In this document: piece after piece, positions 22,853-60,750 of the stretch
Position numbering within the stretch: position 1 is the first letter of the stretch
Layout: every line of letters starts with the position of its first letter
From: Streptomyces globisporus
GTDB taxonomy: Bacteria; Actinomycetota; Actinomycetes; Streptomycetales; Streptomycetaceae
DNA length: 64,000 nucleotides
Direction: 5' to 3'
NCBI GenBank assembly: GCA_014649555.1
Contig: BMTG01000002.1
Span: 124,001-188,000 of the forward strand
The notes under the pieces: generated by a model
Told to the model about the DNA's origin: nothing
The model's database searches: none
The model's input: only the letters and a program-made list of their open reading frames with translations
Position numbers and translations under genes: made by a program

Positions 22853-23605
22853 TCAGCGGCCGCCCTGGCGCATCAGGAGGTCGCGCAGGGCGCGGGTGTG
22901 GCGGCGGCTGACGGCGAGTTCGGCCTCGCCGATGCGCACGCTCATGCTGCCCGCGTCCAGGCGCAGCTCGTCGATCCGGCCCAGCGCCACGAGGTGGCGG
23001 CGGTGGATCCGGACGAAGCCGCGCGAGCGCCACCGCTCCTCCAGGGTGGTGAGCGGGATGCGGACGAGATGGCTGCCGCCGGCGGTGTGCAGGCGGGCGT
23101 AGTCGCCCTGGGCCTCGGCGTAGGCGATCTCGTCGATGGGGATGAAGCGGATGACGCCGCCGAGCTCGACCGGGATCTGGTCGCCCGCGGTGTCGTGGAC
23201 GGGTGCGGACCGGTCCCCCACCTGTTCGGCGGCCCGGCGGACGGCTTCGGCCAGGCGTTCGCGGCGGACCGGTTTGAGGACGTAGTCGACGGCCTTGAGG
23301 TCGAAGGCGTGGACGGCGAAGCCTTCGTGCGCGGTGACGAAGACGATCAGCGGGGGCGCGGCGAATCCGGCGAGGAGCTGGGCGACGTCGAGCCCGGTGA
23401 GACCGGCCATGTGGATGTCGAGGAAGACCACGTCGATCGCGGACGGGTCGTCGGGGCCCGCGTCCACGGCGCTGCCGATGCGGCGCAGTGCCTCGGTCGC
23501 GCCGGTGGCGCCCTCGGCGCTGCGGACACGGGGGTCGGCGCGCAGGAGGTAGAGGAGCTCCTCCAGGGCGGGTTGTTCGTCGTCGACGGCGAGTACGCGC
23601 AGCAT
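22853..23605 (-). CDS. LytTR-family response regulator
   Basis: The 250-residue regulator has an N-terminal receiver with Asp pair 'AVDDEQPALEEL', phospho-acceptor Asp in 'DVVFLDIHMAGLTG' and Lys in 'YVLKPVRRERLAEA', followed by a LytTR DNA-binding domain ('IDEIAYAEAQGDYARLHTAG' and 'FVRIHRRHLVALGRID'). It heads the operon with DUF485, symporter and LytS-type kinase. This gene order resembles enterobacterial BtsSR or YpdAB systems, in which the pair controls a carboxylate transporter; the comparison is by analogy. Divergent to an anti-sigma gene 70 bases away. Confidence 0.9.
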   Translation of the reverse strand: MLRVLAVDDEQPALEELLYLLRADPRVRSAEGATGATEALRRIGSAVDAGPDDPSAIDVVFLDIHMAGLTGLDVAQLLAGFAAPPLIVFVTAHEGFAVHAFDLKAVDYVLKPVRRERLAEAVRRAAEQVGDRSAPVHDTAGDQIPVELGGVIRFIPIDEIAYAEAQGDYARLHTAGGSHLVRIPLTTLEERWRSRGFVRIHRRHLVALGRIDELRLDAGSMSVRIGEAELAVSRRHTRALRDLLMRQGGR

Positions 23606-45870: not shown

Positions 45871-47430
<1,560 letters not shown>

Positions 47431-47434
47431 TCAT

Positions 47435-47448
47435 GGAGAGCGCTCTCC
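47435..47448. promoter_or_regulatory. LacI-type operator GGAGAGCGCTCTCC in the lacI promoter
   Basis: A perfect 14-base palindrome lies 21 bases before the LacI-family ATG (47470). It overlaps a -35-like TGGAGA, with a TATAAA -10 at 47457-47462, so the repressor would block its own promoter. Three more copies of the GAGAGCGCTCTC core lie at 58008, 59321 and 60737. Confidence 0.75.
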
Positions 47449-47469
47449 TCCAGTGCTATAAAGGCGCTC

Positions 47470-48558
47470 ATGACGGATGATCTGCGGTCGGCCGGAGCAC
47501 CCACCCTGGAGGACGTGGCCCGTGCGGCGGGCGTCTCACGCGCTACCGTTTCCCGGGTCGTCAACGGGGTGCGCAATGTCGACCCGGCGATCCAGGAGGC
47601 GGTGCGCCGGGCGGTCTCCGTGACGGGCTACACCCCCAACCGGGCGGCCAGGTCCCTGGTCACCCGGCGGGCCGACGCCATCGCGCTGGTGGTGTCGGGC
47701 GCGGGCGTCGAGCCGGAGGCGGCAGAAGAGTCCGAAGGCCCCACCCCGTCCGGGCACGGGAGCTCGTTCACCGCGCAGGTCTTCGCCGACCCGTTCTTCG
47801 GCCGGGTGGTGACCGGGGTGGTCAACTACCTGCGGCCGCGCGGCATGCACCCGGTGCTGATGTTCGCGGAGTCGTCGCGGGCGCGCGAAGAGGTGGTGGC
47901 GTACCTCCGGCAGGGCCGCGCGGACGGCGCCCTGGTGGTCTCGACGCACGCCGAGGACCCGCTGCCCGCCCTGATCGCCGAAGCCGGCCTGGCGGCCGTC
48001 CTGTTCGCCCGCCCGGCGCGGCCGGTCCCGGTCAGCTATGTCGATCTCGCGCACCAGGACGGTGCGCGGCTGGCGGCGGAGCATCTGCTCGGCCGGGGCT
48101 GCCGCCGGATCGCGACGATCAGCGGCCCGCTGGACGTACCGGCGGGGCAGGCGCGTCTGACAGGGTTCCGGGACACCATGGCGCGCCACGGGCACCCGTA
48201 CATCCCCATCGTCGAGGGGCAGTTCACCCAGGAGAGCGGCGAGGCGGCGATGGAACGGCTACTGGCGGAGCACCCCGACCTGGACGGGGTGTTCGCCGCC
48301 AACGACCTGATGGCGCTGGGAGCCTGCCACGTCCTGCGGGAGCGCGGCCGCTCGGTCCCGGGGGACGTGGCGGTGGTCGGCTTCGACGACAGCAGCGCGG
48401 CCCTGGCCTGCCGCCCGCCGCTGACCACGGTCCGTCAGCCGGTGGAGGGGATGGCCGCGGAGATGACGCGCCTGCTCCTGGACCGGCTGTCCCGGCCGGA
48501 CGGCCCGGTGACCTCGGTGATCTTCGAGCCGGAGCTGGTGGTACGGGGGTCGGCCTGA
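47470..48558 (+). CDS. LacI-family transcriptional repressor
   Basis: The 362-residue repressor has the LacI headpiece ('PTLEDVARAAGVSRATVSRV' with hinge 'YTPNRAARSLV') and a periplasmic-binding-like sugar domain ('ANDLMALGACHVLRERGRSV', 'VVGFDDSSAALACRPPLTTV'). The recognition helix resembles that of CebR, whose site TGGGAGCGCTCCCA shares the AGCGCT centre with the palindrome found here. Inferred targets are itself and three secreted hydrolase-type genes at 56-60.7 kb. An insertion of about 20 residues ('PEAAEESEGPTPSGHG') follows the headpiece. The transcript is probably nearly leaderless. Confidence 0.92.
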   Translation: MTDDLRSAGAPTLEDVARAAGVSRATVSRVVNGVRNVDPAIQEAVRRAVSVTGYTPNRAARSLVTRRADAIALVVSGAGVEPEAAEESEGPTPSGHGSSFTAQVFADPFFGRVVTGVVNYLRPRGMHPVLMFAESSRAREEVVAYLRQGRADGALVVSTHAEDPLPALIAEAGLAAVLFARPARPVPVSYVDLAHQDGARLAAEHLLGRGCRRIATISGPLDVPAGQARLTGFRDTMARHGHPYIPIVEGQFTQESGEAAMERLLAEHPDLDGVFAANDLMALGACHVLRERGRSVPGDVAVVGFDDSSAALACRPPLTTVRQPVEGMAAEMTRLLLDRLSRPDGPVTSVIFEPELVVRGSA

Positions 48559-48631
48559 GGACTCATGGCGTGCGGGGGCGGCCCAGGCTCCGCCGGGCGG
48601 AGGCTCATCGGCGTACGCGAGGATGACGTTC

Positions 48632-49123
48632 ATGACCTCTCCCCCGCCACGCGTCCGGGTCGCCGCCTATGTGATCCGGCGTCACCCTTCCCCCGCCCTG
48701 CTGGTGTTCGACCAGCAGGCCTTCCCCGAGGCCGGCACCCAGGTGCCGGCGGGCGGTGTCGCGCCCGGCGAGGATCCGGAGCGGGCCGTCCTGCGCGAGG
48801 TCGCCGAGGAGACCGGGCTGCGGGGAGCGCGTGTCGTCCGGCGGATCGCGGTGGACGGACGGCCGCACCCCGAGACCGGGCAGCCCCGGCTGACCACTTA
48901 TCTCCTGCTCGACGCCCCGCCGGACGGCCCCGCGGAGTGGGAGCACCGGGTCCGCGGCGACGGGGGCGACGCCGGAATGCGGTTCGCCTGCCGGTTCGCG
49001 CCGCTGCCCCTGGCGTACCCGCTCGCCGACGCCCAGGACGCGCACCTGCGCCGGGTGGACCCGCACTGGGCCGCGCCGGGCGAGGCGGCAGGCCGACCCG
49101 ACGAGGTGTGTCCTCTCAGTTGA
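48632..49123 (+). CDS. NUDIX hydrolase
   Basis: The 163-residue protein has a complete Nudix box G-x5-E-x7-REUxEExGU in 'GGVAPGEDPERAVLREVAEE' followed by TGL, so it should cleave a nucleoside diphosphate linked to some other group with magnesium. The substrate is not clear. ATG 48632 is preferred over 48623 because GAGG lies 8 bases before it. The gene end overlaps the end of the ROK gene by eight bases, tail to tail. Confidence 0.88.
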   Translation: MTSPPPRVRVAAYVIRRHPSPALLVFDQQAFPEAGTQVPAGGVAPGEDPERAVLREVAEETGLRGARVVRRIAVDGRPHPETGQPRLTTYLLLDAPPDGPAEWEHRVRGDGGDAGMRFACRFAPLPLAYPLADAQDAHLRRVDPHWAAPGEAAGRPDEVCPLS

Positions 49124-50447
49124 CCGGGGTCCGGTGCCGTTCCCGTACCGCGTGGACGGCCGTACGCGGTGGCGCGCCGGTTGCGCCCGGCGCCGGGCGG
49201 CTGCCGCCCCGGGTCAGGAAGTCCGCGAGCGGGAGCGTCGCCGCCCCCACGGTGACCGCGTCCGGGCCGAGGCGGCCCATCTCGATGGTGGTGCGGGCCG
49301 CCGCGTGGCTCAGGGCGTACTCGTTCGCGTACCGGCGGATCTCCGGCAGCAGGCGGGGGCCGAGGAGCAGGCCCGCCCAGCCGCCGATCAGGATCCGCTC
49401 GGGCAGGAAGAGGTTCACCAGGTCGGCGAGGGCCGCGCCGAGGCACTCGGCCGTCTCGTCGAGCAGCGCGAGGGCCACCGGGTCCGGGGTGCCACGGCGC
49501 CCCGGATAGGCGGCGGCGAGCAGGGCGGCGAGCGCGGTCTCGTCGTCGGCGTCCTCGGGCAGCGGGCCGCCCGCCTCCCGCCAGCGCTCGCGCAGGGCTT
49601 CCGCGCCCGCGTACGCCTCCAGGCAGCCGATGGATCCGCAGCGGCACCGGCGGCCGCGGAGCTGGACGGTCGTGTGGCCCCATTCGAGGGCGAGGCTGGT
49701 GCGGTCCTCGTCGAGGATGTCGCCGTGGTCGACGCAGGCGCCCACACCCGAGCCGATCAGGGCGATGGCGGCGGCGCCCGCGCCCCGGCCGCCGCCGAAC
49801 CACATCTCGGCCTGGCCGAGCGTCTTGGCGCCGTTGTCGATGAAGAGCGGCACCTCGGGCGGTACGTCGACCGCCTCGCGCAGCAGCTGCTCGAAGGGGA
49901 CCGCGCGCCAGCCGATCGTCTGGCCGTGCACCACCGCGCCGCGGGTGCCGTCGGGGCCTTCGGGGCCGTCGCGCTCGATGATGCCGGGTACGCCGATCCC
50001 GATGCCGAGGAGCCGGCGCGGATCGGCGCCCGCGTCGCGCAGCACGTCCGCGACGCCGGTGCGGACATGGGCGACGATGCGCTCGACGTCGTAACCGTGC
50101 TGGGCCAACAGCCTCTCCGTGCGGGCCAGTTCGGTCAGGGAGAGGTCGAACAGCTCGACGCGGACGCGGGTCTCGCCGATGTCGATGCCGACGAGGAGGC
50201 CGCCGTCCGGAGCGACGCGCAGCAGCGTACGGGGGCGGCCGCCGTCGGAGTCGACGACACCGGCCTCCTCCAGCAGGCCCTCGGCGGAGAGCTCCGCGAC
50301 GACGTTGCTGATGGAACCTGAACTCAGGCCCGTGACCGGGCCGAGCTCCTGACGGCTCAGCGGGCCGTCGAAATACAACCGTTGCAATACGCGCGCCCGG
50401 TTGCCCCGCCGCAGGTCACGCACGGTTCGTCTGTTGCGCTCGGCCAT
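49116..50447 (-). CDS. ROK-family repressor/sugar kinase-like regulator
   Basis: The 443-residue protein has an N-terminal winged helix ('LYFDGPLSRQELGPVTGLSS' then 'GSISNVVAELSAEGLLEEAG') and a ROK sugar-kinase fold ('LLVGIDIGETRVRVELFDLS'). The ROK signature zinc motif is visible as 'GRRCRCGSIGCLEAYAG'. The usual kinase Asp region reads 'FIDNGAKTLGQAEM'. It is divergent from an oligosaccharide ABC importer and GH1 operon with an ATTAAG/CTTAA inverted repeat between, so it most likely represses that operon until the sugar appears. AAGGAG precedes the ATG. Confidence 0.9.
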   Translation of the reverse strand: MAERNRRTVRDLRRGNRARVLQRLYFDGPLSRQELGPVTGLSSGSISNVVAELSAEGLLEEAGVVDSDGGRPRTLLRVAPDGGLLVGIDIGETRVRVELFDLSLTELARTERLLAQHGYDVERIVAHVRTGVADVLRDAGADPRRLLGIGIGVPGIIERDGPEGPDGTRGAVVHGQTIGWRAVPFEQLLREAVDVPPEVPLFIDNGAKTLGQAEMWFGGGRGAGAAAIALIGSGVGACVDHGDILDEDRTSLALEWGHTTVQLRGRRCRCGSIGCLEAYAGAEALRERWREAGGPLPEDADDETALAALLAAAYPGRRGTPDPVALALLDETAECLGAALADLVNLFLPERILIGGWAGLLLGPRLLPEIRRYANEYALSHAAARTTIEMGRLGPDAVTVGAATLPLADFLTRGGSRPAPGATGAPPRTAVHAVRERHRTPVN

Positions 50448-50510
50448 GGTGCTCCTTCCCGTCCAGGAACATACCCCGGCCCAAGGCCTTGACGCGACCT
50501 TCTCTCACCT

Positions 50511-50533
50511 CTTAAATCACGGCATAAATTAAG
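50511..50533. promoter_or_regulatory. Likely ROK operator upstream of the ABC importer operon
   Basis: CTTAAATCACG and GCATAAATTAAG form an imperfect inverted repeat (outer arms CTTAA/TTAAG exact) spanning 50511-50533, in a strikingly AT-rich patch. It lies 63 bases from the ROK start and 56 bases from the binding-protein start. AT-rich TTAA arms are typical of NagC/XylR-type ROK sites. Confidence 0.5.
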
Positions 50534-50589
50534 TCATGGAGGCCGTTCGGTTCCCGAACGCAGCCATCCCCGGAAAGGGGCCACCTCTC

Positions 50590-51900
50590 ATGCGTCATCT
50601 CAGAGCCGCAAGCGCCGTCACCCTCGCCCTCTCCATCGCCTTGGCCGCCACCGGCTGTGGTGGGGGAACCACGTCGGGCGGCAGCAACGAGTCGCCGAAG
50701 ACCCTCACCTACTGGGCGTCCAACCAGGGCCCCAGCATCGAGGCCGACAAGAAGATCCTCACTCCCGAGCTGAAGAAGTTCGAGAAGGAGACCGGGATCA
50801 AGGTGAAGCTGGAGGTCGTGCCGTGGGCCGACCTGCTGAACCGGATCCTCGCCGCCACCACCTCCGGTCAGGGCCCGGACGTGCTGAACATCGGCAACAC
50901 CTGGTCGGCCTCGCTCCAGGCGACCGGCGCGCTCCTGCCGTGGGACGACAAGAACTTCGAGGCGATCGGCGGCCGGGACCGCTTCGTCGACTCGGCGGTC
51001 GCCTCGGCCGGCAAGGAGGGTGAACCGCCCGCCGCCGTGCCGCTGTACTCGCTGGCGTACGCCCTCTACTACAACAAGAAGATGTTCGCCGAGGCGGGCG
51101 TCGAGAAGCCGCCGGCCACCTGGGACGAGCTGGTCGAGACCGGCAAGAAGATATCCAAGGACGGCAAGTGGGGTCTTGGCGCCGAGGGCGGCAACCTCTC
51201 CAACAACATCCACCAGACCTTCGTCCTGGGCCAGCAGCACGGCGCCGACTTCTTCGACAAGGACGGCAAGGCGACCTTCACCTCGGACGGTGCGGTCGCG
51301 GCGGTGAAGCAGTACATCGACTTCATGGCCCAGGACAAGATCATCGCCCCGGGCAACGCCGAGTACGCCCAGAACCAGTCGCTCACCGACTTCGCCAAGG
51401 GCAAGACCGCGATGGTGCTGTGGCAGGCGGCCGCCTCCACCTTCGCCGCGCAGGGCATGAAGCCGGAGGACTGGGGCGCGGCCCCGGTGCCGGTCCCCTC
51501 GGGCGCCCCGGGCACCGGCAAGCAGGTCAACTCCATGGTCGCGGGCATCAACATGGCGGTGTTCAAGAACACCAAGAACATCGACGGCGCGAAGAAGTTC
51601 GTGAAGTTCATGACGAGCGACGCCGAGCAGAAGCTGCTCAACAAGACCTACGGCTCCATCCCGCCGGTCAAGGCCGCCCAGGCCGACGCCGCGTTCGGGG
51701 CCCCCGACCTCAAGGTCCTGCGCGACACCCTCGCCACCAGCGCCGCCCCGCTCCCCCAGGTCCCCAACGAGTCGCAGTTCGAGACGGCAGTCGGCACGGC
51801 CGTCAAGGAGCTGTGGGCGGACGCGGCTGCCGGACGCCCCGTGACCGAGGCGTCGGTCAAGGAGCGCCTGGAAAAGGCCCAGCAGACGATGCAGCAGTGA
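50590..51900 (+). CDS. ABC transporter sugar-binding lipoprotein
   Basis: The 436-residue extracellular binding protein has a lipobox ('LSIALAATGCGGG') and a family 1 solute-binding fold: 'TLTYWASNQGPSIEADKKIL', 'FEKETGIKVKLEVVPWADLL' and 'GPDVLNIGNTWSASLQATGA'. Such proteins bind oligosaccharides. With two permeases and a beta-glucosidase in the same operon, a beta-glucoside such as cellobiose or laminaribiose is the best guess. A strong AAAGGGG site lies before the ATG at 50590. Confidence 0.92.
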   Translation: MRHLRAASAVTLALSIALAATGCGGGTTSGGSNESPKTLTYWASNQGPSIEADKKILTPELKKFEKETGIKVKLEVVPWADLLNRILAATTSGQGPDVLNIGNTWSASLQATGALLPWDDKNFEAIGGRDRFVDSAVASAGKEGEPPAAVPLYSLAYALYYNKKMFAEAGVEKPPATWDELVETGKKISKDGKWGLGAEGGNLSNNIHQTFVLGQQHGADFFDKDGKATFTSDGAVAAVKQYIDFMAQDKIIAPGNAEYAQNQSLTDFAKGKTAMVLWQAAASTFAAQGMKPEDWGAAPVPVPSGAPGTGKQVNSMVAGINMAVFKNTKNIDGAKKFVKFMTSDAEQKLLNKTYGSIPPVKAAQADAAFGAPDLKVLRDTLATSAAPLPQVPNESQFETAVGTAVKELWADAAAGRPVTEASVKERLEKAQQTMQQ

Positions 51901-51911
51901 GGCCCTGATCC

Positions 51912-52925
51912 ATGACCGTCACCGCCACCACGGACCCCGAGGTCGACAAGTCGACCGGCAGGGGTACGAACCGGGGCGCCGGGGGTGCGCGCAGGAGACT
52001 GCCGCGCATCCCCGACCGGATCCGCCAAGGCGGACTGCCCTATCTCCTGCTGCTGCCCGCCGTCCTGCTGGAACTCCTCATCCACATCATCCCGATGGTC
52101 ATCGGGATCGTGATGAGCTTCCGTCAGCTCACACAGTTCTTCATCAACAACTGGGGCGCCGCTCCCTGGTCCGGTCTCGACAACTACAAGATCGCCGTCG
52201 ACATCGACGCGCCGATCGGTGAGGCCCTGCTCCACTCGTTCTTCGTCACCTGCGTCTTCACGTTCTTCTCCGTCGGCCTGGCCTGGCTGCTCGGCACAGC
52301 GGCGGCGATCCTGCTCCAGGAGAGCTTCCGGGGCCGGGGCGTCCTGCGGACGATCTTCCTGGTCCCGTACGCCCTGCCGGTCTACGCGGCCGTCATCACC
52401 TGGGCGTTCATGTTCCAGCGGGACAACGGGATGATCAACCATGTCCTGCACGACCAGCTCGGCATCACGGACGAGCCGTCGTTCTGGCTGATCGGCGACA
52501 ACAGTCTCTACACCCTGATCATCGTCTCGGTGTGGAAGGGCTGGCCGTTCGCCTTCCTCATGCTGATGGCCGGACTCCAGAACATCCCGCGCGAACTGTA
52601 CGAGGCCGCCTCGATCGACGGCGCGGGCATCTGGCAGCAGATCCGCCGGATCACGCTGCCCTCGCTGCGCCCGGTCAACCAGGTGCTGGTCCTGGTGCTC
52701 TTCCTGTGGACGTTCAACGACTTCAACACGCCGTTCGTGCTGTTCGGGAAATCGGCGCCGGAGAACGCGGACCTGATCTCGATCCACATCTACCAGTCGT
52801 CGTTCGTCACCTGGAACTTCGGCACCGGGTCGGCGATGTCCGTCCTGCTGCTGCTCTTCCTGCTGATCGTGACGGCCGTCTATCTGTTCCTCACCTCGCG
52901 CGGAAGGAAGGGCGCCGATGTCTAG
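51912..52925 (+). CDS. ABC transporter permease, MalF type
   Basis: The 337-residue membrane protein has six main membrane helices and the ATPase-contact EAA loop 'ELYEAASIDGAGIWQQIRRI'. The first helix is 'LPYLLLLPAVLLELLIHIIP'. It pairs with the next permease to form the channel of the sugar importer. It starts 11 bases after the binding-protein gene and overlaps the next gene by eight bases. Confidence 0.93.
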   Translation: MTVTATTDPEVDKSTGRGTNRGAGGARRRLPRIPDRIRQGGLPYLLLLPAVLLELLIHIIPMVIGIVMSFRQLTQFFINNWGAAPWSGLDNYKIAVDIDAPIGEALLHSFFVTCVFTFFSVGLAWLLGTAAAILLQESFRGRGVLRTIFLVPYALPVYAAVITWAFMFQRDNGMINHVLHDQLGITDEPSFWLIGDNSLYTLIIVSVWKGWPFAFLMLMAGLQNIPRELYEAASIDGAGIWQQIRRITLPSLRPVNQVLVLVLFLWTFNDFNTPFVLFGKSAPENADLISIHIYQSSFVTWNFGTGSAMSVLLLLFLLIVTAVYLFLTSRGRKGADV

Positions 52926-53811
52926 CCTCACGCGGCCGACCCGCACCGCCCGGTCGCGGGCCCGCTCGCCGATGGCAGCCCCGCAGTCCTTCCTGTGGAC
53001 CCGGCGCATCATCCTGACCCTGCTCGCCGCCTTCGTCCTGCTGCCGGTCTACGTCATGGTCAGCAGCTCGCTGAAGCCGCTCCAGGACGTGTCGGGGAAG
53101 TTCCAGTGGCTCCCGTCCACGCTGACGATCCAGCCGTACTTCGACATCTGGGAGACCGTCCCGCTCGCCAAGTACTTCGTCAACTCGCTGATCGTGGCGG
53201 GCTCGGCGACGGTGCTGTCGGTGACCATCGCGGTGTTCTCGGCGTACGCGGTGAGCCGCTACCGGTTCCGGGGGAAGCGGGTCTTCACCGTCACGGTGCT
53301 CTCCACGCAGATGTTCCCGGGGATCCTCTTCCTGCTCCCGCTGTTCCTCATCTTCGTCAACATCGGCAACAGCACCGGCGTCGCCCTGTACGGCTCGCGC
53401 GGCGGGCTCATCCTCACCTACCTCACGTTCTCGCTGCCCTTCTCCATCTGGATGCTGATCGGCTACTTCGACTCCATCCCCCGCGACCTCGACGAAGCGG
53501 CCCTGGTCGACGGCTGCGGTCCCGTCCGCGCCCTCTTCCAGGTGGTCGTGCCGGCGGCCGTGCCGGGGATCGTCGCGGTGTCCGTCTACTCCTTCATGAC
53601 GGCCTGGGGCGAAGTCCTCTTCGCCTCCGTCATGACGAACGACGCCACCCGGACCCTCTCCGTCGGCCTCCAGGGCTACGCCACGCAGAACGACGTGTAC
53701 TGGAACCAGGTCATGGCCGCGTCCCTCGTCGTCAGCGTCCCGATCGTCGTGGGCTTCCTGCTGCTCCAGCGCTACCTGGTCGCCGGTCTCACCGCCGGAG
53801 CCGTCAAGTGA
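52918..53811 (+). CDS. ABC transporter permease, MalG type
   Basis: The 297-residue membrane protein has six membrane helices and the EAA loop '[20 protein letters not shown]'. It is the second half of the importer channel. No ATPase gene follows; in Streptomyces such importers commonly share the general ATPase MsiK encoded elsewhere. Its end overlaps a possible GTG start of the glucosidase gene. Confidence 0.93.
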
Positions 53812-53831
53812 CCTTCACAGAAAGGCAGTAC

Positions 53832-55193
53832 GTGTCCGACCTCACCGCACTCCCGGCCGACTTCACCTGGGGGGTCGCCACCGCCGCGTACCAGATCGAG
53901 GGAGCCGTGGCCGAGGACGGCCGCTCCCCCTCCATCTGGGACACGTTCTCGCACACCCCGGGCAAGGTCGACGGCGGCGACACCGGCGACATCGCCTGCG
54001 ACCACTACCACCGGGTCCCTGAGGACATCGGCCTGATCAAGCAACTCGGCGCGGACGCCTATCGGTTCTCGATCGCCTGGCCGCGCGTCGTGCCCGGCGG
54101 CGACGGGCCCGTCAACAAAGCGGGCCTCGACTTCTACGACCGGCTCGTGGACGGCCTGCTGGAGGCGGGCGTCACCCCGTTCGCCACGCTCTACCACTGG
54201 GACCTGCCGCAGGTGCTCCAGGACCGGGGCGGCTGGACCGTACGGGAGACCTCGGAGCACTTCGCGGCGTACGCCTCCCAGGTGGTGGAGCGCCTGGGCG
54301 ACCGGGTCAAGGACTGGGCGACGCTCAACGAGCCCCTGTGCTCGGCCTGGATCGGGCACCTGGAGGGCCGGATGGCACCGGGTATCACCGACCTGACCGC
54401 CGCCGTGCGCGCCTCGTACCACCTGCACCTGGGCCACGGTCTCGCTGTCCAGGCGATCCGGGCGGCCTCCTCGGACGCCCGGGTCGGCATCGTCAACAAC
54501 CTCAGCCCGATCGAGCCGGCGAGCGCGAGCGAGGCCGACCTCGCAGCCGCCCGCCGCGCCGACGGCCACATCAACCGCTGGTGGCTGGACCCGATCCTGG
54601 GGCGCGGCCACCCGCAGGACATGGTGGAGGAGTACGGCGTCGAACTCCCGGTACAGCCAGGTGACTTGGAGACGATCGCGGCCCCGCTGGACTGGCTGGG
54701 GCTCAACTACTACTTCCGGCAGATCGTCACCGCCGATCCCGACGGGACCGCACCGCATGCCCGGCAGGTCTCCGTCCCCGGCGCCCGGCTCACCCACATG
54801 GACTGGGAGGTCCACGCGGAGGGCCTGGAGCAGCTGTTGCTGCGGCTGACCGAGGAGTACGGCGTCCAGCGGATCTACGTCACCGAGAACGGTTCCGCGT
54901 ACGAGGACGTCGTCGCGGCGGACGGTTCGGTGCACGACCCGGAGCGCGTCCGCTATCTGGAGGAGCACCTGGCCGCCTGCGCCCGCGCGGTCGCAAAGGG
55001 CGCCCCGCTGGCCGGGTACTTCGCCTGGTCCCTGATGGACAACTTCGAGTGGGCGTACGGCTACGACAAGCGGTTCGGCCTGGTCCACGTGGACTACGCG
55101 ACCCAGCGCCGTACGGTCAAGAGCAGCGGGCTCCGGTACGCGGAGCTGGTCCGGGAACACGCGGGGCGCCACGATGGCCGGACGGCCGCCTGA
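53832..55193 (+). CDS. GH1 family beta-glucosidase
   Basis: The 453-residue cytosolic enzyme splits imported beta-glucosides. GH1 landmarks are '[20 protein letters not shown]', the acid/base Glu in '[13 protein letters not shown]' near residue 165 and the nucleophile Glu in '[13 protein letters not shown]' near 351, plus '[20 protein letters not shown]'. No signal peptide is present. The GTG at 53832 follows AAAGG and directly precedes the conserved start; a GTG at 53808 overlapping the permease stop is the alternative. The order resembles the cebEFG-bglC locus of streptomycetes, but the adjacent regulator is ROK rather than CebR. Confidence 0.93.
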
Positions 55194-55210
55194 TCCCGCT
55201 TCTCCCCGGC

Positions 55211-55252
55211 AGCCCTCCGGCCGCGGCGATCGCTCGCCGCGGCCGGAGGGCT
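55211..55252. terminator. Strong bidirectional terminator after the glucosidase operon
   Basis: A perfect 19-bp stem (AGCCCTCCGGCCGCGGCGA at 55211-55229 with 55234-55252) and a tetraloop lies between the convergent glucosidase (55193) and PEP-mutase-family (55273) stops, followed by TT on the plus strand. Confidence 0.9.
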
Positions 55253-55272
55253 TTCGCATCGCCGGGCAGCCT

Positions 55273-56040
55273 CTAGGAGGAGGGCGCCCACGGCTTCAGC
55301 ATGTCCTTCATCGCGTCCGCCAGCGCGAACTGCAGCAGCGGACCGTAGGTGATGCGGCCGACGCCGAGGCGGCGGAAGCGCTCGAGGTCGTGCTTCACGG
55401 GATGCGCCGTGGTATTCACCGGAACGGCGACGGCCGCGGTCACCGCCGCGAGCAGTTCGTCGTTGTCCTGGATCTTCACCGGGTAGACGCTGTCGGCGCC
55501 GGCCTGTTCCAGGGCTCGCAGTCGCTCGATCACCTCGTCGAGGACGGCGGAGGGGTTCTCCGCGTGCGCGAAGAGATCGGTGCGCCCGTTGACCCAGACC
55601 GGGACCCCCGCGTCGTCGGCCGCCGCGCGCAGACCCGCGACGTAGCTCGCGTGCTCCTGCGTGCTGCGCACGCGTCCGCCCTCCGAGTGGACGGTGTCCT
55701 CGATGTTGAGACCGACACCGCCGGCCTCGACGAGACCGGCGACGAGGTCCGCTGGCTTCTGGCCGTAGCCGGACTCCAGGTCCACGGAGACGGGGACGTC
55801 GACCGCCGCGATGATCGGCCTGACGGCGGCGAGCACCTCCTCGAAGGTCTGGCCCTCCTGGTCCTCGGCCCCGCGGGAGTCGGCGAGCGGATGGCTGCCG
55901 ATGGTCAGCGCGGGGAAGCCCGCGGCGGCCGCGGTCCGCGCGGACCAGACGTCCCAGACGGTGGGCAGTACGAGCGGCTTGTGTTCGGCGTGCAGGTGCT
56001 TGAGGCGCTCAGCGCGCTCGACAGTGGTTCGAAAGTCCAT
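55273..56040 (-). CDS. Isocitrate lyase/PEP mutase family protein
   Basis: The 255-residue protein has the phosphoenolpyruvate mutase/isocitrate lyase barrel: 'LVLPTVWDVWSARTAAAAGF', 'VPVSVDLESGYGQKPADLVA' and 'GGVGLNIEDTVHSEGGRVRS', with Asp/Glu for the metal. It lacks the Lys-Lys-Cys-Gly-His motif of isocitrate lyase, so it is closer to PEP mutase or methylisocitrate/oxaloacetate-cleaving relatives. No phosphonate genes are nearby. It stands alone, with strong hairpins on both sides. Confidence 0.87.
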   Translation of the reverse strand: MDFRTTVERAERLKHLHAEHKPLVLPTVWDVWSARTAAAAGFPALTIGSHPLADSRGAEDQEGQTFEEVLAAVRPIIAAVDVPVSVDLESGYGQKPADLVAGLVEAGGVGLNIEDTVHSEGGRVRSTQEHASYVAGLRAAADDAGVPVWVNGRTDLFAHAENPSAVLDEVIERLRALEQAGADSVYPVKIQDNDELLAAVTAAVAVPVNTTAHPVKHDLERFRRLGVGRITYGPLLQFALADAMKDMLKPWAPSS

Positions 56041-56080
56041 GACGACGACGCTACCCCGCATCGCCCGGGAACCACGTGAC

Positions 56081-56122
56081 GAGCCCGCGGCGGCCACGGA
56101 TGTCCGTGGCCGCCGCGGGCTC
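56081..56122. terminator. Terminator after the secreted glycosidase gene
   Basis: A 19-bp perfect stem (56081-56099 with 56104-56122, arms starting GAGCCCGCGGCGG) closes on a 4-base loop, 57 bases beyond the stop of the minus-strand glycosidase gene. Confidence 0.88.
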
Positions 56123-56178
56123 CCGCCGCGCCGTCGGCGGGGACGGGACGGCGCGGAGGTCCTGCGGGCCCCGCCGGA

Positions 56179-57945
56179 TCAGCGCCGGTAGACGCCGAAC
56201 TCGTAGAGCGAGTAACCCCACGGGGTGCCGCGCTCGGAGGCGCTCACGCGGACGTAGCGCGCGTTGCCGGTGACCTGGATGTCATCGATGCCGCCGTTGC
56301 CCGCCGTCTCGGTGTGGACGGTGTTCCAGTCCTGGCCGTTGTCCGAGGTCTGGACCGTGTACGCCTTGGCGTAGGCGGCCTCCCAGGCCAGCTGGACGTG
56401 GTCGAAGGAGGTGGTCGCGCCCAGGTCGACCTGGATCCACTGCTGGTCGGCCCACTCGCTGGCCCAGCGGGTGTCGAAGGAGCCGTCGACGGCGTTGGCC
56501 GCCGGGCAGGGGCAGCCGACGCTGTCCGGCTGGAACGACGAGGCCTCGGCGGGCTTGCCCGAAGCCAGGTTCACCCCGTCGACCTTCGGCGGAACCACCG
56601 TGAAGGACTTCGTCTCGATGCCGACGTTGCCCTTCCCGTCGGTCGACTTGAGGTAGACCTTCCAGGCGCCGAGCTTGTCCGGCGCGGTGACCTCGAAGGT
56701 GCCGTCACCCCGGTCGGTGAATTCGGCGTCCGTCAACTGGCCGCTGTCGTCGATGTACTTGGAGTTCACCAGCACCTGGTGGGTGAGCGCGTCGCCGTCC
56801 GGGTCGGAGACGGACGCCCGGAACGTGAACGGCTTGCCCGCCTCGACGGCCGAGGCGTTGTCGACGGTCATGCCGCTGATGACCGGCGGGGTGTTGTCGC
56901 CGGAGGTGTCCGCCCCGTACGCCTCCTTCACCGCGTAGTACGAGAGCCGCTTCTGGCCCGCCGGGAGCAGGTTGAACCAGACGCCGCCGAAGTCGTACTC
57001 GGTGCCGTAGTGGAACAACGTGGCCCCGAGCGAGACCCCCTGATGCCCATTCACGCAGTCCCAGGCCCGCTGGTAGCCCTCCGCCTTCGCCACGTCGGTG
57101 GGTTCGTCCGGGATGCCGTTGGCGTCGTCCGGGACCTCCCACTCGCCTGCGGGTCCGCCCTCGGTGACGATGTAGGGCTTGTCGTAGCCGCCGCTCTCCC
57201 AGGTGGCGCGGATGTCGCAGACGGCGTCGTAGGAGTTGACGGCGTACAGGTCGAGGTCGGGCGCGTTCTTCTTGTAGTACGGCCAGGCCCCGGTCCAGGC
57301 GTCGGTGGAGGTGACCGGGTGGTTCGGGTCGATCGCGTGGATCTTCTTGGCGATCTCGTTGACGAACGTGGTGTACGCGTCGCGCTGCCGCTCCAGCTCG
57401 TCGCCGTTGTAGCAGTTCTGCAGGCCGAGCACCGACTCGTTGCCGACGTTCCACATGAGGACGCCCTCATGGTCCTTGTAGGCCTCCACCCACTTCGGGA
57501 ACTCGGCGAGCATGTCGTTCTTGTACGCGGTGTCCGTCAGGTAGTTCACACAGCCGCCGCTGCCGGGGCCGCCGCCCGGCTGCAGCCAGAACCCGGCAAT
57601 CACCTTGATGCCGTTCTCGGCCGCGCTGTCCAGCAGGGGCTTCGTGGTGGCGTCGGTGCCCCACGTGCGGATCGTGTTGACGCCCATCGACTTCACATCG
57701 GGCATGTACCGCCCGGCGTCCGCGACGGACGGACCCCAGGTCAGACCCTTCACGGTGTACGGTGCGCCGTCCACGGTCAGCTGCCAGGCCCCCTGGGAGC
57801 CGGTCACCTTCACCACGCTTCCGGCGGCCTGGGCGGTCGGGACCGGGAGGGCGGCCGCCGCGGCGGCCAGGACTCCGGCGACGGCGAGGCGTGCGGTGGT
57901 ACGGCCACGGGGGCGGGCCGGTCGTCGGGAACGGGACGTGATCAT
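56179..57945 (-). CDS. Secreted clan GH-A glycoside hydrolase with Ig-like and discoidin (F5/8C) domains
   Basis: The 588-residue exported enzyme has an Arg-rich signal peptide ending 'VPTAQAAG', a TIM-barrel hydrolase of about 300 residues ('VKGLTWGPSVADAGRYMPDV'), with the acid/base Glu in 'LMWNVGNESVLGL' near 167 and the nucleophile Glu in 'YIVTEGGPAGEW' near 263. A Cadherin/Ig-like domain follows ('TPPVISGMTVDN'), then a CBM32-like discoidin domain from about 450. The barrel resembles GH2 C-terminal or GH72-like beta-glucan enzymes, so a fungal or plant beta-glucan is a plausible target. A LacI-type palindrome lies 63 bases upstream. The ATG at 57945 is the first to precede the signal. 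Confidence 0.82.
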   Translation of the reverse strand: MITSRSRRPARPRGRTTARLAVAGVLAAAAAALPVPTAQAAGSVVKVTGSQGAWQLTVDGAPYTVKGLTWGPSVADAGRYMPDVKSMGVNTIRTWGTDATTKPLLDSAAENGIKVIAGFWLQPGGGPGSGGCVNYLTDTAYKNDMLAEFPKWVEAYKDHEGVLMWNVGNESVLGLQNCYNGDELERQRDAYTTFVNEIAKKIHAIDPNHPVTSTDAWTGAWPYYKKNAPDLDLYAVNSYDAVCDIRATWESGGYDKPYIVTEGGPAGEWEVPDDANGIPDEPTDVAKAEGYQRAWDCVNGHQGVSLGATLFHYGTEYDFGGVWFNLLPAGQKRLSYYAVKEAYGADTSGDNTPPVISGMTVDNASAVEAGKPFTFRASVSDPDGDALTHQVLVNSKYIDDSGQLTDAEFTDRGDGTFEVTAPDKLGAWKVYLKSTDGKGNVGIETKSFTVVPPKVDGVNLASGKPAEASSFQPDSVGCPCPAANAVDGSFDTRWASEWADQQWIQVDLGATTSFDHVQLAWEAAYAKAYTVQTSDNGQDWNTVHTETAGNGGIDDIQVTGNARYVRVSASERGTPWGYSLYEFGVYRR

Positions 57946-58007
57946 GGGGGAGAAGCTCCTCACGGGAGTCGCGGTGCGGGTGGGGTTACCGGAGTACGGG
58001 ATAGCTT

Positions 58008-58021
58008 GGAGAGCGCTCTCC
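58008..58021. promoter_or_regulatory. LacI-type operator GGAGAGCGCTCTCC upstream of the glycosidase gene
   Basis: The perfect 14-base palindrome is identical to that in the lacI promoter (47435). It lies 62 bases upstream of the glycosidase ATG. Its right end overlaps the stem of the terminator of the preceding DUF1996 gene. Confidence 0.72.
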
Positions 58022-58051
58022 CTCATGGGTGCGGTGCACCCATGAGGGAGA
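58017..58051 (-). terminator. Terminator after the DUF1996 gene, overlapping an operator
   Basis: A perfect 16-bp stem (58017-58032 with 58036-58051) with a 3-base loop GGT starts 15 bases past the DUF1996 stop. Its distal arm shares five bases with the operator at 58008-58021. Confidence 0.8.
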
Positions 58052-58066
58052 CGCGACGGGGAGGGG

Positions 58067-59188
58067 TCAGGGTCGGGGCAGTTCGTAGTTCTCGTCGAGG
58101 GCCGCGCCCTCGCCCGGGTTGTTCTCGTCGTAGCCACGGGCGTTGCACTGGAGAGCGCCGACGATGCAGTGGTCGACCAGGGCGTCGAGCGTGGCGTCGT
58201 CCCAGGCGTTGAAGAAGTCGTAGTGGAAGGAGTGGCCGGTGCCGCTGGCCAGCCTCACCTGCGACATGTCACCGTTGACCGGCCACGCCATCTTGAACTC
58301 GATCATCGGCAGGGCGACCGGGTGGCTCGGCGGGCAGACGTCCTGGTTGGCCCCCATCACGACCGGGTAGGCCATGTGGGCCTTGTGGTCGGGAGTGTCC
58401 AGATACTTGCCGTCCCAGCAACTGGGCGCCTGCATGCGCAGGTTGAGCTGGGTGTCCTGGCTGGTCGGGCAGGCGGCCGGGAAGTCGTAGTTGTGGTAGC
58501 TCTCGCCGCACTCGTACCCCTCGACCATGCCGGGATGGTTGCGGAACTCCTCGGCGGTCTGCGTGGGGCTCCCGACGACGAACCGGAGCCCCTTGGGGAA
58601 GGACCGCACCGTGCGGTAGTCGGTGACTCCGGCCTTGTAGTAGATGGTCTGGGGGCCGACCGGGCGGACCTCCTCGTTCCCGTTGTAGAGGGTCGGCATC
58701 CAGTACGCGGACCGGTCACCGGGCGCCAGGCACTTGGTGCCGCCCGCACTCAGGGACGCGGTGGTGCTGTTCGCGTTCGTGGTGTCGTTGCCCATGAACG
58801 TGTGGTCGTGCGAGGCGCCGGCCTGGCCCGGATAGACGATCGGGTCGTCCGGGGCGGTGTGGTTGACCGAGCAGTTGGCCTGGAACTCGTGGAAGTAGCG
58901 GTGCGGCGGGATCTCGTCGGACGGCTCCACGCCCGTGACCGGCGGTTCCGCGGGTATGTAGCCGTCGCCGTCGGGGTCGTCCCCGAAGGCCACGGGCTTG
59001 GCCGGCGCCATCTTGTGCCCCTGCATGACGTGCGAGGCCGCGGCGGGCTTGCCGGCCGCCTCCGGGGCCGTGCCGGCGGCGCCCGGACCGGCGTTCGCGA
59101 TCGCGGACAGCCCGAGCGCGACGAGCGCCAGGGCGGTGGCCACGACCAGCACGGACACCAGGGTTGATCGGTTGAGTCTTGTCACCAT
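58067..59188 (-). CDS. Secreted DUF1996 domain protein
   Basis: The 373-residue protein has a signal peptide ('VVATALALVALGLSAIANAG') and a DUF1996 domain: 'DEIPPHRYFHEFQANCSVNH', 'QAGASHDHTFMGNDTTNANS' and 'HYDFFNAWDDATLDALVDHC'. His/Asp-rich segments and several Cys pairs suggest a metal-binding, disulfide-stabilised fold. DUF1996 is common in fungal wall-associated proteins; its function is unknown. GGAGG five bases before the ATG at 59188 decides the start over two earlier ATGs. A LacI-type palindrome lies 132 bases upstream. Confidence 0.85.
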   Translation of the reverse strand: MVTRLNRSTLVSVLVVATALALVALGLSAIANAGPGAAGTAPEAAGKPAAASHVMQGHKMAPAKPVAFGDDPDGDGYIPAEPPVTGVEPSDEIPPHRYFHEFQANCSVNHTAPDDPIVYPGQAGASHDHTFMGNDTTNANSTTASLSAGGTKCLAPGDRSAYWMPTLYNGNEEVRPVGPQTIYYKAGVTDYRTVRSFPKGLRFVVGSPTQTAEEFRNHPGMVEGYECGESYHNYDFPAACPTSQDTQLNLRMQAPSCWDGKYLDTPDHKAHMAYPVVMGANQDVCPPSHPVALPMIEFKMAWPVNGDMSQVRLASGTGHSFHYDFFNAWDDATLDALVDHCIVGALQCNARGYDENNPGEGAALDENYELPRP

Positions 59189-59320
59189 AGGGACCTCCAT
59201 GCCGCTCTTCATCCCTGCACTTCGGGTGCACGGTGGGGGGAAAGGGTGAGCTGGACGGTGCAGCCGGGAAGAGACTCCACCCTGCGCGTCACGAGGCCGG
59301 CGGACCGCGGGATCTCTCTG

Positions 59321-59334
59321 GGAGAGCGCTCTCC
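59321..59334. promoter_or_regulatory. LacI-type operator GGAGAGCGCTCTCC upstream of the DUF1996 gene
   Basis: Third copy of the identical 14-base palindrome, 132 bases before the DUF1996 start and after the protease terminator (59420-59447). Confidence 0.72.
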
Positions 59335-59419
59335 AAAGCGGTGCCAGTGTTGCGCCGAGGCTGAGAGGGTGTCAATAGCTTGTGAACGATGCGCCGCCCA
59401 AAGGCTGTTGACGCAAGGA

Positions 59420-59447
59420 AGCGGCCCCGCACACCGGCGGGGCCGCT
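59420..59447. terminator. Terminator after the serine protease gene
   Basis: AGCGGCCCCGC (59420-59430) pairs exactly with 59437-59447 over a 6-base loop, 67 bases beyond the protease stop on the minus strand. Confidence 0.75.
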
Positions 59448-59514
59448 CATCGGTCCTACGTCGTACTGCCGGGGCCCGCTCCGCCGGGGAGGACGGCGGG
59501 ACGGCTCCCCCGGA

Positions 59515-60657
59515 TCACGCGGTGTGCAGCCTCAGTCCGTACCGGTTGAGGATCTCGTTGATCGGCTGGTACCAGGTCTCGCCGCCGCTGGTGCAGTTGC
59601 CCCAGCCGCCCGAGGTGACACCCTGGGCCTGGTCGCCGCTGATGAACGAGCCGCCGGAGTCACCGCCCTGGGCGCAGACGCTCGTCTTGGTCATCTGGTG
59701 GACGGCGCCCTGGCTGTAGTTGACGGTCTCGTTCTTGGCGAGGACGCGGCCGCAGTGCCAGCGCGTGGTGGAGCCGGAGCGGCAGATCGAGGCGCCGATC
59801 GGAGCCTCGTTCGAGCCACGGACGAGCTGGTCCGGAACGGTGCCCCAGCCGAGCACGACCGGGACGGTCCACCAGCCGCTGCCGACGTTCACCCAGGCGT
59901 AGTCGTCACCGGGGAAGGACGATCCCTGGAAGTTGCCGATGTAGGAGTTGTCCCAGCCGCGGACCTGCTGACCGGTACCGCCGCAGTGCCCGGCGGTGAC
60001 GAAGCCGCCGTGCACCGAGAAGCCGATGGAGCAGCGGACGTTGCCCGTGTAGTACGGGTCGCCGCCGACCGTTCCGGCGGCGAAGGTCTGCGGAGCCTCG
60101 GCGGTCGCCTTCACCGTGACGGGACCGGCCTTGCGGGCCTTGGCGACGAAGGCCCGGACATCGTTGTCAGTCTGCTCTGCGGCGACGACGTTCACGACGA
60201 CGCGACTGGTGGCCGGGTCGACGTGCCAGCTGCTCACCCCGGACGGAGCTTTCAGGGCGTCGATCCGCGCCTTGGCGGCATCGAGGCTCTTGGCCGAGTG
60301 CTCGACGAGCCGGGTGTCGGCACCGGTCGCCCGCACGGCTTCGGCCTTCTCGGCGGTGGTGACCGCGATGGTCAGCCTGCCGGTCTTCGCGTCGAGCCAG
60401 GAGCCCCCGAAGGAGGAGCCCGCGGCGCGCTCCGCCTTCTTCTCCAGGGCGGTGGCGGCCTTCTCGTCGGCGAGCCGGGTGAGGGCCTGCTTCTCGGTGA
60501 GGCCGAGGTCGCGCTGCATGGCGGAGAGCAGGGCGGCGGAGGCGGGAGGTTCGGCGGGGGCGGGCGCGGCGGAGGCGGACACCGGACCGGCGGCGGTCCA
60601 GGCTCCGATCACCAGGAGCGCGGACAGACCGGTCCGCAGCAGGGTTGCGTGTCTCAA
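59515..60657 (-). CDS. Secreted S1E-type serine protease (streptogrisin/alpha-lytic family) with propeptide
   Basis: The 380-residue preproprotein has a signal peptide, a propeptide of about 165 residues ending near 'AEAPQTFAAGTVGGDPYYTG', and a chymotrypsin-fold protease with the triad in 'GFVTAGHCGGTG' (His, about 223), 'SSFPGDDYAWVNV' (Asp, about 250) and 'CAQGGDSGGSFISG' (Ser, about 334). The prodomain 'LGLTEKQALTRLADEKAATA' is the alpha-lytic type foldase. The only start that keeps the signal peptide is a TTG at 60657 with GGAAGG upstream. A TGAGAGCGCTCTCA palindrome lies 79 bases before the start. Confidence 0.92.
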   Translation of the reverse strand: MRHATLLRTGLSALLVIGAWTAAGPVSASAAPAPAEPPASAALLSAMQRDLGLTEKQALTRLADEKAATALEKKAERAAGSSFGGSWLDAKTGRLTIAVTTAEKAEAVRATGADTRLVEHSAKSLDAAKARIDALKAPSGVSSWHVDPATSRVVVNVVAAEQTDNDVRAFVAKARKAGPVTVKATAEAPQTFAAGTVGGDPYYTGNVRCSIGFSVHGGFVTAGHCGGTGQQVRGWDNSYIGNFQGSSFPGDDYAWVNVGSGWWTVPVVLGWGTVPDQLVRGSNEAPIGASICRSGSTTRWHCGRVLAKNETVNYSQGAVHQMTKTSVCAQGGDSGGSFISGDQAQGVTSGGWGNCTSGGETWYQPINEILNRYGLRLHTA

Positions 60658-60736
60658 GGGAGTGACCCTTCCTGTTGTTCCAACGACGTGGGGGTGGAAC
60701 GGGAGGCGTCCGGGAGCGCGATCCGATCGTGCCTTT

Positions 60737-60750
60737 TGAGAGCGCTCTCA
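60737..60750. promoter_or_regulatory. LacI-type operator TGAGAGCGCTCTCA upstream of the protease gene
   Basis: Fourth palindrome with the GAGAGCGCTCTC core; the outer pair is T/A instead of G/C. It ends 79 bases before the protease start. Confidence 0.68.

Follow-up and report, generated by a model that had tools for sequence, protein, structure and literature searches.

The closest described systems to the one reported here are the cellobiose regulons of CebR and CelR in Streptomyces and Thermobifida, which use the palindrome TGGGAGCGCTCCCA (PMC4898821, PMC3377646); CebR and its site were already known (PMC4898821). We analyzed a window of 64,000 nucleotides of Streptomyces globisporus (positions 124001-188000 of contig 2, from a genome of 8.25 Mb in 58 contigs), which carries the gene of a LacI-type repressor, here named LacI_W, and four palindromes with the core GAGAGCGCTCTC. 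In common with the CebR/CelR regulons, this system has a repressor of the same LacI clade, an AGCGCT-centred 14-bp palindrome, secreted glycoside hydrolases (GH), and an uptake operon with ATP-binding cassette (ABC) transporter and GH1 genes. It differs from them in that the half-site has GAG in place of GGG, the genes adjoining the sites encode β-1,3-glucanases, and the repressors are separate; moreover, a CebR-like gene with its own sites coexists in the same genome.

Palindromes of this kind have been in print since 2012, when the identical 14-mers TGAGAGCGCTCTCA, GGAGAGCGCTCTCC, and AGAGAGCGCTCTCT were given for Catenulispora acidiphila, Streptosporangium roseum, and Thermobispora bispora, near LacI genes (PMC3377646). 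Those of C. acidiphila were found near two GH16 enzymes, maybe endo-1,3-β-glucanases, and those of S. roseum near genes for a LacI protein, two CBM32 proteins, and a GH3 enzyme (PMC3377646). Unlike the present analysis, the passages of that paper on these sites contain no assignment of the outer base pair to paralogs and no Streptomyces regulon. The published recognition code of the LacI family links residues 17 and 18 with operator positions 4 and 5, and residue 22 with position 6, and its main text has no terms for position 7 or residue 29, there numbered NT-7 and AA-27 (PMC2978694). The words Streptomyces and glucan do not occur in the main text of PMC4052901, and our literature search turned up no LacI regulon for β-1,3-glucan in Streptomyces. 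If the reading offered below holds, what is new is that the sites of a Streptomyces genome point throughout to β-1,3-glucan, that a single base pair divides them among three paralogs, and that residue 29 covaries with this pair. We consider it likely that the four palindromes are LacI-type operators within a β-1,3-glucan network, in which three paralogs of the CebR clade recognize a common core and are told apart by the outermost base pair. The sites, their neighbors, their conservation, the association of operators with paralogs, and the residue-29 covariation were all obtained by computation, whereas binding, repression, and the inducer are inferred.

Probable operator palindromes in the window, the genome, and relatives

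The exact 12-mer GAGAGCGCTCTC occurs four times in the window, at 47436, 58009, 59322, and 60738, so that a perfect 12-bp core is shared across 13.3 kb. When one flanking base is added on each side, three copies read as the 14-mer GGAGAGCGCTCTCC (47435, 58008, and 59321), here called G..C, and the fourth as TGAGAGCGCTCTCA (60737), here called T..A. Dinucleotide shuffles of the window gave on average 0.01 exact 12-mers, and none of 100 shuffles reached four. At up to two mismatches there was no enrichment (five sites seen against 7.66 expected), and the signal therefore resides in the exact palindrome. The scan and the shuffles agree with the initial annotation, which had placed one perfect palindrome upstream of each of lacI, a secreted GH-A glycosidase, a secreted DUF1996 protein, and a secreted serine protease, and had seen no other copy in the window.

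By our choice of starts, likely start codons lie 21-132 bp downstream of each palindrome. The G..C operator of lacI_W (47435-47448) stands 8 bp ahead of TATAAA, a likely −10 box (47457-47462, forward strand), which in turn precedes by 7 bp the start codon at 47470; the palindrome is 21 bp from this codon, and the gene (47470-48558, forward strand) encodes a CebR-clade repressor with R17, A18, and N29 in Escherichia coli LacI numbering. The other three genes are on the reverse strand. A G..C operator (58008-58021) lies 62 bp from the start, at 57945, of the gene for a secreted GH158-like enzyme (56179-57945). The DUF1996 gene (58067-59212) has its G..C operator at 59321-59334, 108 bp from a start at 59212 or, likelier, 132 bp from one at 59188, which has the better ribosome site; TTGACA, a likely −35 box (59370-59375, reverse strand), is found 35 bp before this operator. 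The T..A operator of the protease gene (59515-60657), at 60737-60750, is 79 bp from a TTG start at 60657 and, by comparison, would be a LacI_3 site.

In the whole genome, the exact core was found 12 times, four in the window and eight elsewhere, and the reversed control was not found at all. Every one of the 12 sites adjoins a gene for a β-1,3-glucanase, a DUF1996 protein, a LacI protein, an ABC/GH1 system, or a protease; gene calls here were mechanical, and in a few cases the longest open frame includes the site, which then lies upstream of the likelier start codon. The β-1,3-glucanase families represented are GH158-like, GH64 (twice), GH55 (twice), GH16, and GH81. On contig 1, one site (6471) is ahead of a GH64 β-1,3-glucanase gene and another (546103) ahead of the gene for a GH55 enzyme matching the PDB 4pew series of the SirexAA-E laminarinase (E 0). 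Contig 2 has a site at 341195, ahead of a second GH64 gene, and a pair at 533438 and 533546, ahead of a second DUF1996 gene (DUF1996_2); the gene of the repressor LacI_2 comes after DUF1996_2, and a DNA ligase gene lies across from them on the far side of the sites. The site at 148333 of contig 6 is flanked by a GH55 gene, which encodes an F5/8 type C domain, and a GH16 gene, which encodes two of them; those at 23288 and 23452 of contig 18 lie between a GH81 gene and an operon for a solute-binding protein (SBP), ABC transporter, and GH1 enzyme, with the gene of the repressor LacI_3 beyond GH81. Sites with one mismatch numbered 27 against 13 controls in all; the four whose surroundings were read are ahead of LacI_3 (contig 18, 19049), ahead of a GH3 gene beside a GH1 gene (contig 1, 34264), at the GH55/GH16 pair (contig 6, 148569), and ahead of an SBP gene (contig 6, 294351). 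This genome scan, which the initial annotation had proposed as a check, upheld its four window sites and showed that it had understated the size of the regulon, which is wider than three genes. β-1,3-Glucan is a main polymer of fungal cell walls and also occurs as laminarin. With sites standing beside β-1,3-glucanase genes, this is a predicted β-1,3-glucan network and not a three-gene regulon, and the palindromes probably act as switches for the enzymes by which this polymer is digested.

The palindromes are also retained in relatives. Across 80 loci surrounding the GH158-like gene in named genomes (1.46 Mb), 135 exact sites were counted against no reversed controls, and 74 of these loci had at least one. 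In addition, 57 of 61 Streptomyces genomes contained the 12-mer (313 copies against nine controls), and copy numbers were 0, 0, 1, 1, 1, and 0 in the six genomes without a match to any of the three LacI types. Judged by these counts, the sites look like conserved operators. Three loci (L142, L143, and L154) hold one exact site each, of types C..G, G..G, and C..G, with no query-gene neighbor, and these may be due to chance.

Three repressor paralogs and the outermost base pair

A search of the genome found 30 LacI proteins, five of which form one clade with support of 1.00: a CebR-like protein (L033), a protein encoded on contig 4, LacI_3, LacI_W, and LacI_2. LacI_W itself matched the LacI/GalR family both in its DNA-binding domain (PF00356, 52.9 bits with a cut-off of 27) and in its effector domain, which resembles periplasmic binding proteins (PF13377, 131.7 bits). 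It forms a sister pair with LacI_2 (59% identical) and shares 47% identity with the CebR-like protein. LacI_3 is encoded on another contig, beside the GH81 gene and the ABC/GH1 operon. The recognition helix SRAT[V/A]SRV[V/I]N is common to LacI_W, LacI_2, and LacI_3 (33, 7, and 19 distinct helix-turn-helix (HTH) sequences, respectively).

We then related the outer pair of the palindromes to these paralogs in the 61 genomes, with presence defined for LacI_W as at least 60% identity and greater closeness to LacI_W than to LacI_2, and for LacI_2 and LacI_3 as 70% and 63% identity; matches below the identity limits set for each count were left out of the association, HTH, residue-29, and tree counts. 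G..C palindromes were present in 25/28 genomes with LacI_W and in 3/33 without it (Fisher p 1e-10), and T..A palindromes in 49/51 genomes with LacI_3 and in 1/10 without it (Fisher p 3e-8), although the species are related and these p-values, uncorrected for the tree, overstate the evidence, a point that weighs against the reading. A..T palindromes, counted by hand, were found in all nine genomes with LacI_2 and in one of the 52 others. The cross pairs were weak (T..A with and without LacI_W, 24/28 vs 26/33; G..C with and without LacI_3, 25/51 vs 3/10), and when the genomes with LacI_3 were divided by presence or absence of LacI_W, G..C was found in 22/24 vs 3/27 and T..A in 23/24 vs 26/27.

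Individual genes gave a similar picture. Sites of relatives of the protease (at least 60% identity) were T..A in all 12 counted, with two loci dropped from this count, L067 (49% identity, no site close upstream) and L109 (38%). Sites of the GH158-like gene were G..C in 27/27 (74 loci examined); those of DUF1996 in 50/55, the rest being three G..T and two A..T (70 loci); and those of lacI in 17/19, with one A..C and one G..T (44 loci). Loci that had no site and fewer than 400 bp of upstream DNA were dropped from the upstream counts (LacI 2/46, GH-A 6/80, SBP 8/36, NUDIX 2/4). Eleven of the 26 genomes with LacI_3 only were read, and their 39 sites comprised 31 T..A and eight with T on one half, with no G..C; among their neighbors are LacI_3, GH64, GH16-like, GH81, and GH55 genes, and the protease gene is a neighbor six times. 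Since G..C palindromes follow LacI_W across genomes, this repressor probably acts on its own gene, the DUF1996 gene, and the gene for the GH158-like enzyme. The protease site is of the T..A type, and proteases in genomes without LacI_W also have T..A; therefore, the operator at 60737 probably answers to the unlinked LacI_3. The proposal that LacI co-represses three exported proteins is thus probable for DUF1996 and the GH158-like enzyme and lacks support for the protease, whose site tracks LacI_3.

The DNA-binding domains vary along with the operators. Residue 29 was N in 32 of 33 distinct LacI_W HTHs (S in the other one), T in 7/7 of LacI_2, and G in 19/19 of LacI_3. The HTH set was enlarged after this tally, and each protein was set against the nearest site in the promoter of its own gene. 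Of 67 N29 proteins, 55 had a site, and G was present on at least one half in 54 (four with A on the other half). Among 11 proteins with S or T29, four had a site, always with A, and 18 of the 20 G29 proteins had one, with T in 16. Two LacI_W orthologs have switched, L091 of S. longispororuber (R28 N29 to P S) and L273 of genome G040 (to P T); in both, A replaces G at the own operator, and the DUF1996 operator of L091 is also A..T. In a tree of 97 proteins, in which a partial half-site, 'A', is listed for the CebR-like row because of a loose filter, each of them is nested in an N29/G clade, with support of 0.858 for L091 with its sister L092 and 0.964 for L273 with its sister group. Since each ortholog sits inside such a clade, these look like two separate joint switches of protein and operator. 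N29 together with G was also observed in another family of this class, f17 (L240, L241, L242, L244, and L246). Because changes at residue 29 come with changes at residue 28, and LacI_3 also differs at residue 31, a role for residue 29 alone is unproven. With moderate confidence, we propose from this covariation that residue 29, together with 28, reads the outermost operator pair (N29 with G, T/S29 with A, G29 with T); with the helix constant, changes of one or two residues and of one base pair per half-site would separate the paralogs, and single-base changes would move genes such as GH55 between regulons.

The operators of GH55 genes are G..C, A..T, or T..T, depending on the genome or gene copy (L215, L216, L222-L224, L229, L233, L158, L162, L202, L232, and L234), as if these genes moved between regulons by single-base changes. 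A further rule, by which residue 18 (A or G) would set position 5 (A or G), was dropped, as L271 and L272 have G18 with GAGAGC half-sites. These two proteins are CebR-like (R17 G18 K29), come from outside Streptomyces, and have AGAGAGCGCTCTCT or GGAGAGCGCTCTCT upstream, unlike CebR sites.

Proposed mechanism and competing explanations

In the favored model, the G..C operators would serve LacI_W at its own gene, DUF1996, and the GH158-like enzyme; the T..A operators would serve LacI_3 at the GH64 and GH81 enzymes, the ABC operon, and the window protease; and the A..T operators would serve LacI_2, which adjoins the second DUF1996 gene, together with GH55 and GH16 genes. Without inducer, a dimer bound at the promoter or just past the transcription start would block transcription, and an oligosaccharide released from β-1,3-glucan would lift this block. 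By analogy with cellobiose for CebR, the inducer is probably a short β-1,3-gluco-oligosaccharide. The predicted promoters are compatible with this mechanism. TATAAA of lacI_W was unchanged in five relatives (at least 80% identity, with a site), and its mRNA may be leaderless, as the start codon comes so soon after this box; TTGAC of the DUF1996 gene was retained in most of 14 relatives compared, and the protease operator follows TACAGT. At these three genes, the operator positions could let a bound dimer block RNA polymerase.

Several observations weigh against this reading. The G..C count was also raised in genomes with LacI_2 (8/9 vs 20/52, p 0.009), and these genomes hold more sites of every type. 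LacI_W without a perfect G..C was found in G010 and G032, where one half of the site at their own lacI has G, and in G040, the genome of the switched ortholog L273; conversely, G..C without LacI_W was found in G025 and G041 (before GH55) and in G028, a draft of 1300 contigs (at DUF1996). G008 and G045 have LacI_3 without a perfect T..A, and the sole genome with T..A that lacks LacI_3 is G050, which is 82% complete and holds a LacI_3 fragment. In G055, a genome without LacI_2, A..T stands ahead of a relative of DUF1996_2. At the level of own promoters, one N29 protein (L263) has A..T as its nearest site, sites of this form are missing for seven of nine LacI_2 proteins, and in most cases the own site of LacI_3 is imperfect in one half. 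Moreover, the G..C and A..T sites at the DUF1996_2 promoter are only 108 bp apart, which makes cross-binding possible.

The arrangement proposed initially, in which LacI_W alone binds all four window sites and co-represses DUF1996, the GH-A enzyme, and the protease with the outer pair irrelevant, accounts for the perfect core shared within 13.3 kb, for the mixed outer pairs (G..T, A..C) at some sites by LacI_W and DUF1996, and for the helix common to all three repressors. It is, however, unlikely, given that protease sites were T..A without exception and the neighboring DUF1996 and GH158-like sites G..C, that T..A palindromes, six of them at proteases, persist where LacI_3 is present and LacI_W is not, and that the presence of T..A is independent of LacI_W. 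We regard as quite unlikely an overlapping network in which the three repressors bind all operators and the outer pair tracks the descent of gene neighborhoods and not repressor identity. The frequent synteny of the LacI_W, DUF1996, and GH158-like genes, the restriction of LacI_2 to nine of the 61 genomes, and the two site types side by side at DUF1996_2 would fit such a network, but T..A follows LacI_3 at unlinked GH64, GH16-like, and protease genes, the operators of GH55 genes differ from place to place, and two nested LacI_W orthologs switched residue 29 and the outer base jointly.

It is highly improbable that these palindromes serve the cellobiose regulator CebR. The AGCGCT centre and the protein clade are held in common, and the 2012 paper credited such sites to CelR or CelR-like regulators (PMC3377646); however, this genome encodes the separate CebR-like protein L033, named for its site and HTH, which has a perfect TGGGAGCGCTCCCA at its own promoter, one of four perfect copies in the genome. 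This indicates that LacI_W is not the CebR ortholog. In addition, the GAGAGCGCTCTC sites adjoin β-1,3-glucanases, and none of the families named beside the 12 sites is a cellulase family.

Proteins of the locus and biological meaning

The enzyme described initially as a GH-A glycosidase matched GH158 structures (9oro, 1e-30; 6pal, 4.7e-23), with both putative catalytic glutamates aligned, in NE and TE motifs; by sequence, it is a member of GH158, with a predicted activity. Pfam gave only a weak GH2_C match and NCBIfam none, and the C-terminus carries an F5/8 type C (CBM32-like) domain. The protease is of the alpha-lytic type, with a prodomain (PF02983, 43.1 bits) and matches to 2ea3 (1.7e-53) and alpha-lytic protease (4.7e-34). 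For the DUF1996 domain (58070-58987), the best of five models had a predicted local distance difference test (pLDDT) score of 90.7, and the others had scores of 62.6-83.5. The top match of the best model among PDB structures was unconvincing (E 0.16), so assignment of a function by fold was dropped, and a phmmer search of the PDB gave nothing up to E 1. His, Asp, Cys, and Trp residues are invariant in this domain, which, judging from the model, may have an undescribed fold and act on the fungal wall.

Between the DUF1996 and GH158-like genes there is a perfect-looking hairpin (58008-58050, z −7.5), which lies 3' of DUF1996 and extends into the operator; similar inverted repeats were observed ahead of the GH158-like operator in the relatives compared. 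In 47 of the 74 loci examined, the GH158-like gene had no exact site of its own, and in many it closely follows DUF1996, an arrangement that fits an operon. In the window, the gene has its own operator and is parted from DUF1996 by the strong hairpin.

The region between lacI and the targets (49116-55193) contains a ROK regulator gene and an operon for an SBP, permease, and GH1 β-glucosidase and is free of the palindrome; these genes remain linked to LacI_W or GH158-like genes in several relatives. They were considered as targets and rejected, as no site is near them in the window, and within 450 bp upstream of their matches with enough upstream DNA in relatives there was also none (SBP 0/28, ROK 0/27, GH1 0/36). 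Divergent from lacI is a gene for a transglycosylase-like/LysM/M23 cell-wall hydrolase (45871-47280). Elsewhere, a secreted protein with a Tat-like signal is encoded at T..A operators in two genomes (L174, 2604-4016; L184, 2744-4123); it had no Pfam match, nor, for L184, any in the PDB, and is a candidate new β-glucan or fungal-wall protein. A small secreted double-psi β-barrel protein (PF03330) is encoded downstream of another T..A operator (L163, 4171-4587).

Yeast-lytic enzyme sets of the Cellulosimicrobium/Oerskovia type combine β-1,3-glucanases with an alpha-lytic-type protease. The pairing of enzymes is the same here, and the link, known from sequence, is a shared operator core that perhaps answers to different repressors. 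Collectively, these results give Streptomyces a predicted regulon for β-1,3-glucan, whether from fungal walls or laminarin, with named targets, and tie a secreted protease and the DUF1996 family to it. They also caution against assuming that a cluster of almost identical operators is controlled by the nearest regulator gene, and they provide a natural example of the way in which cross-talk between duplicated repressors may be avoided.

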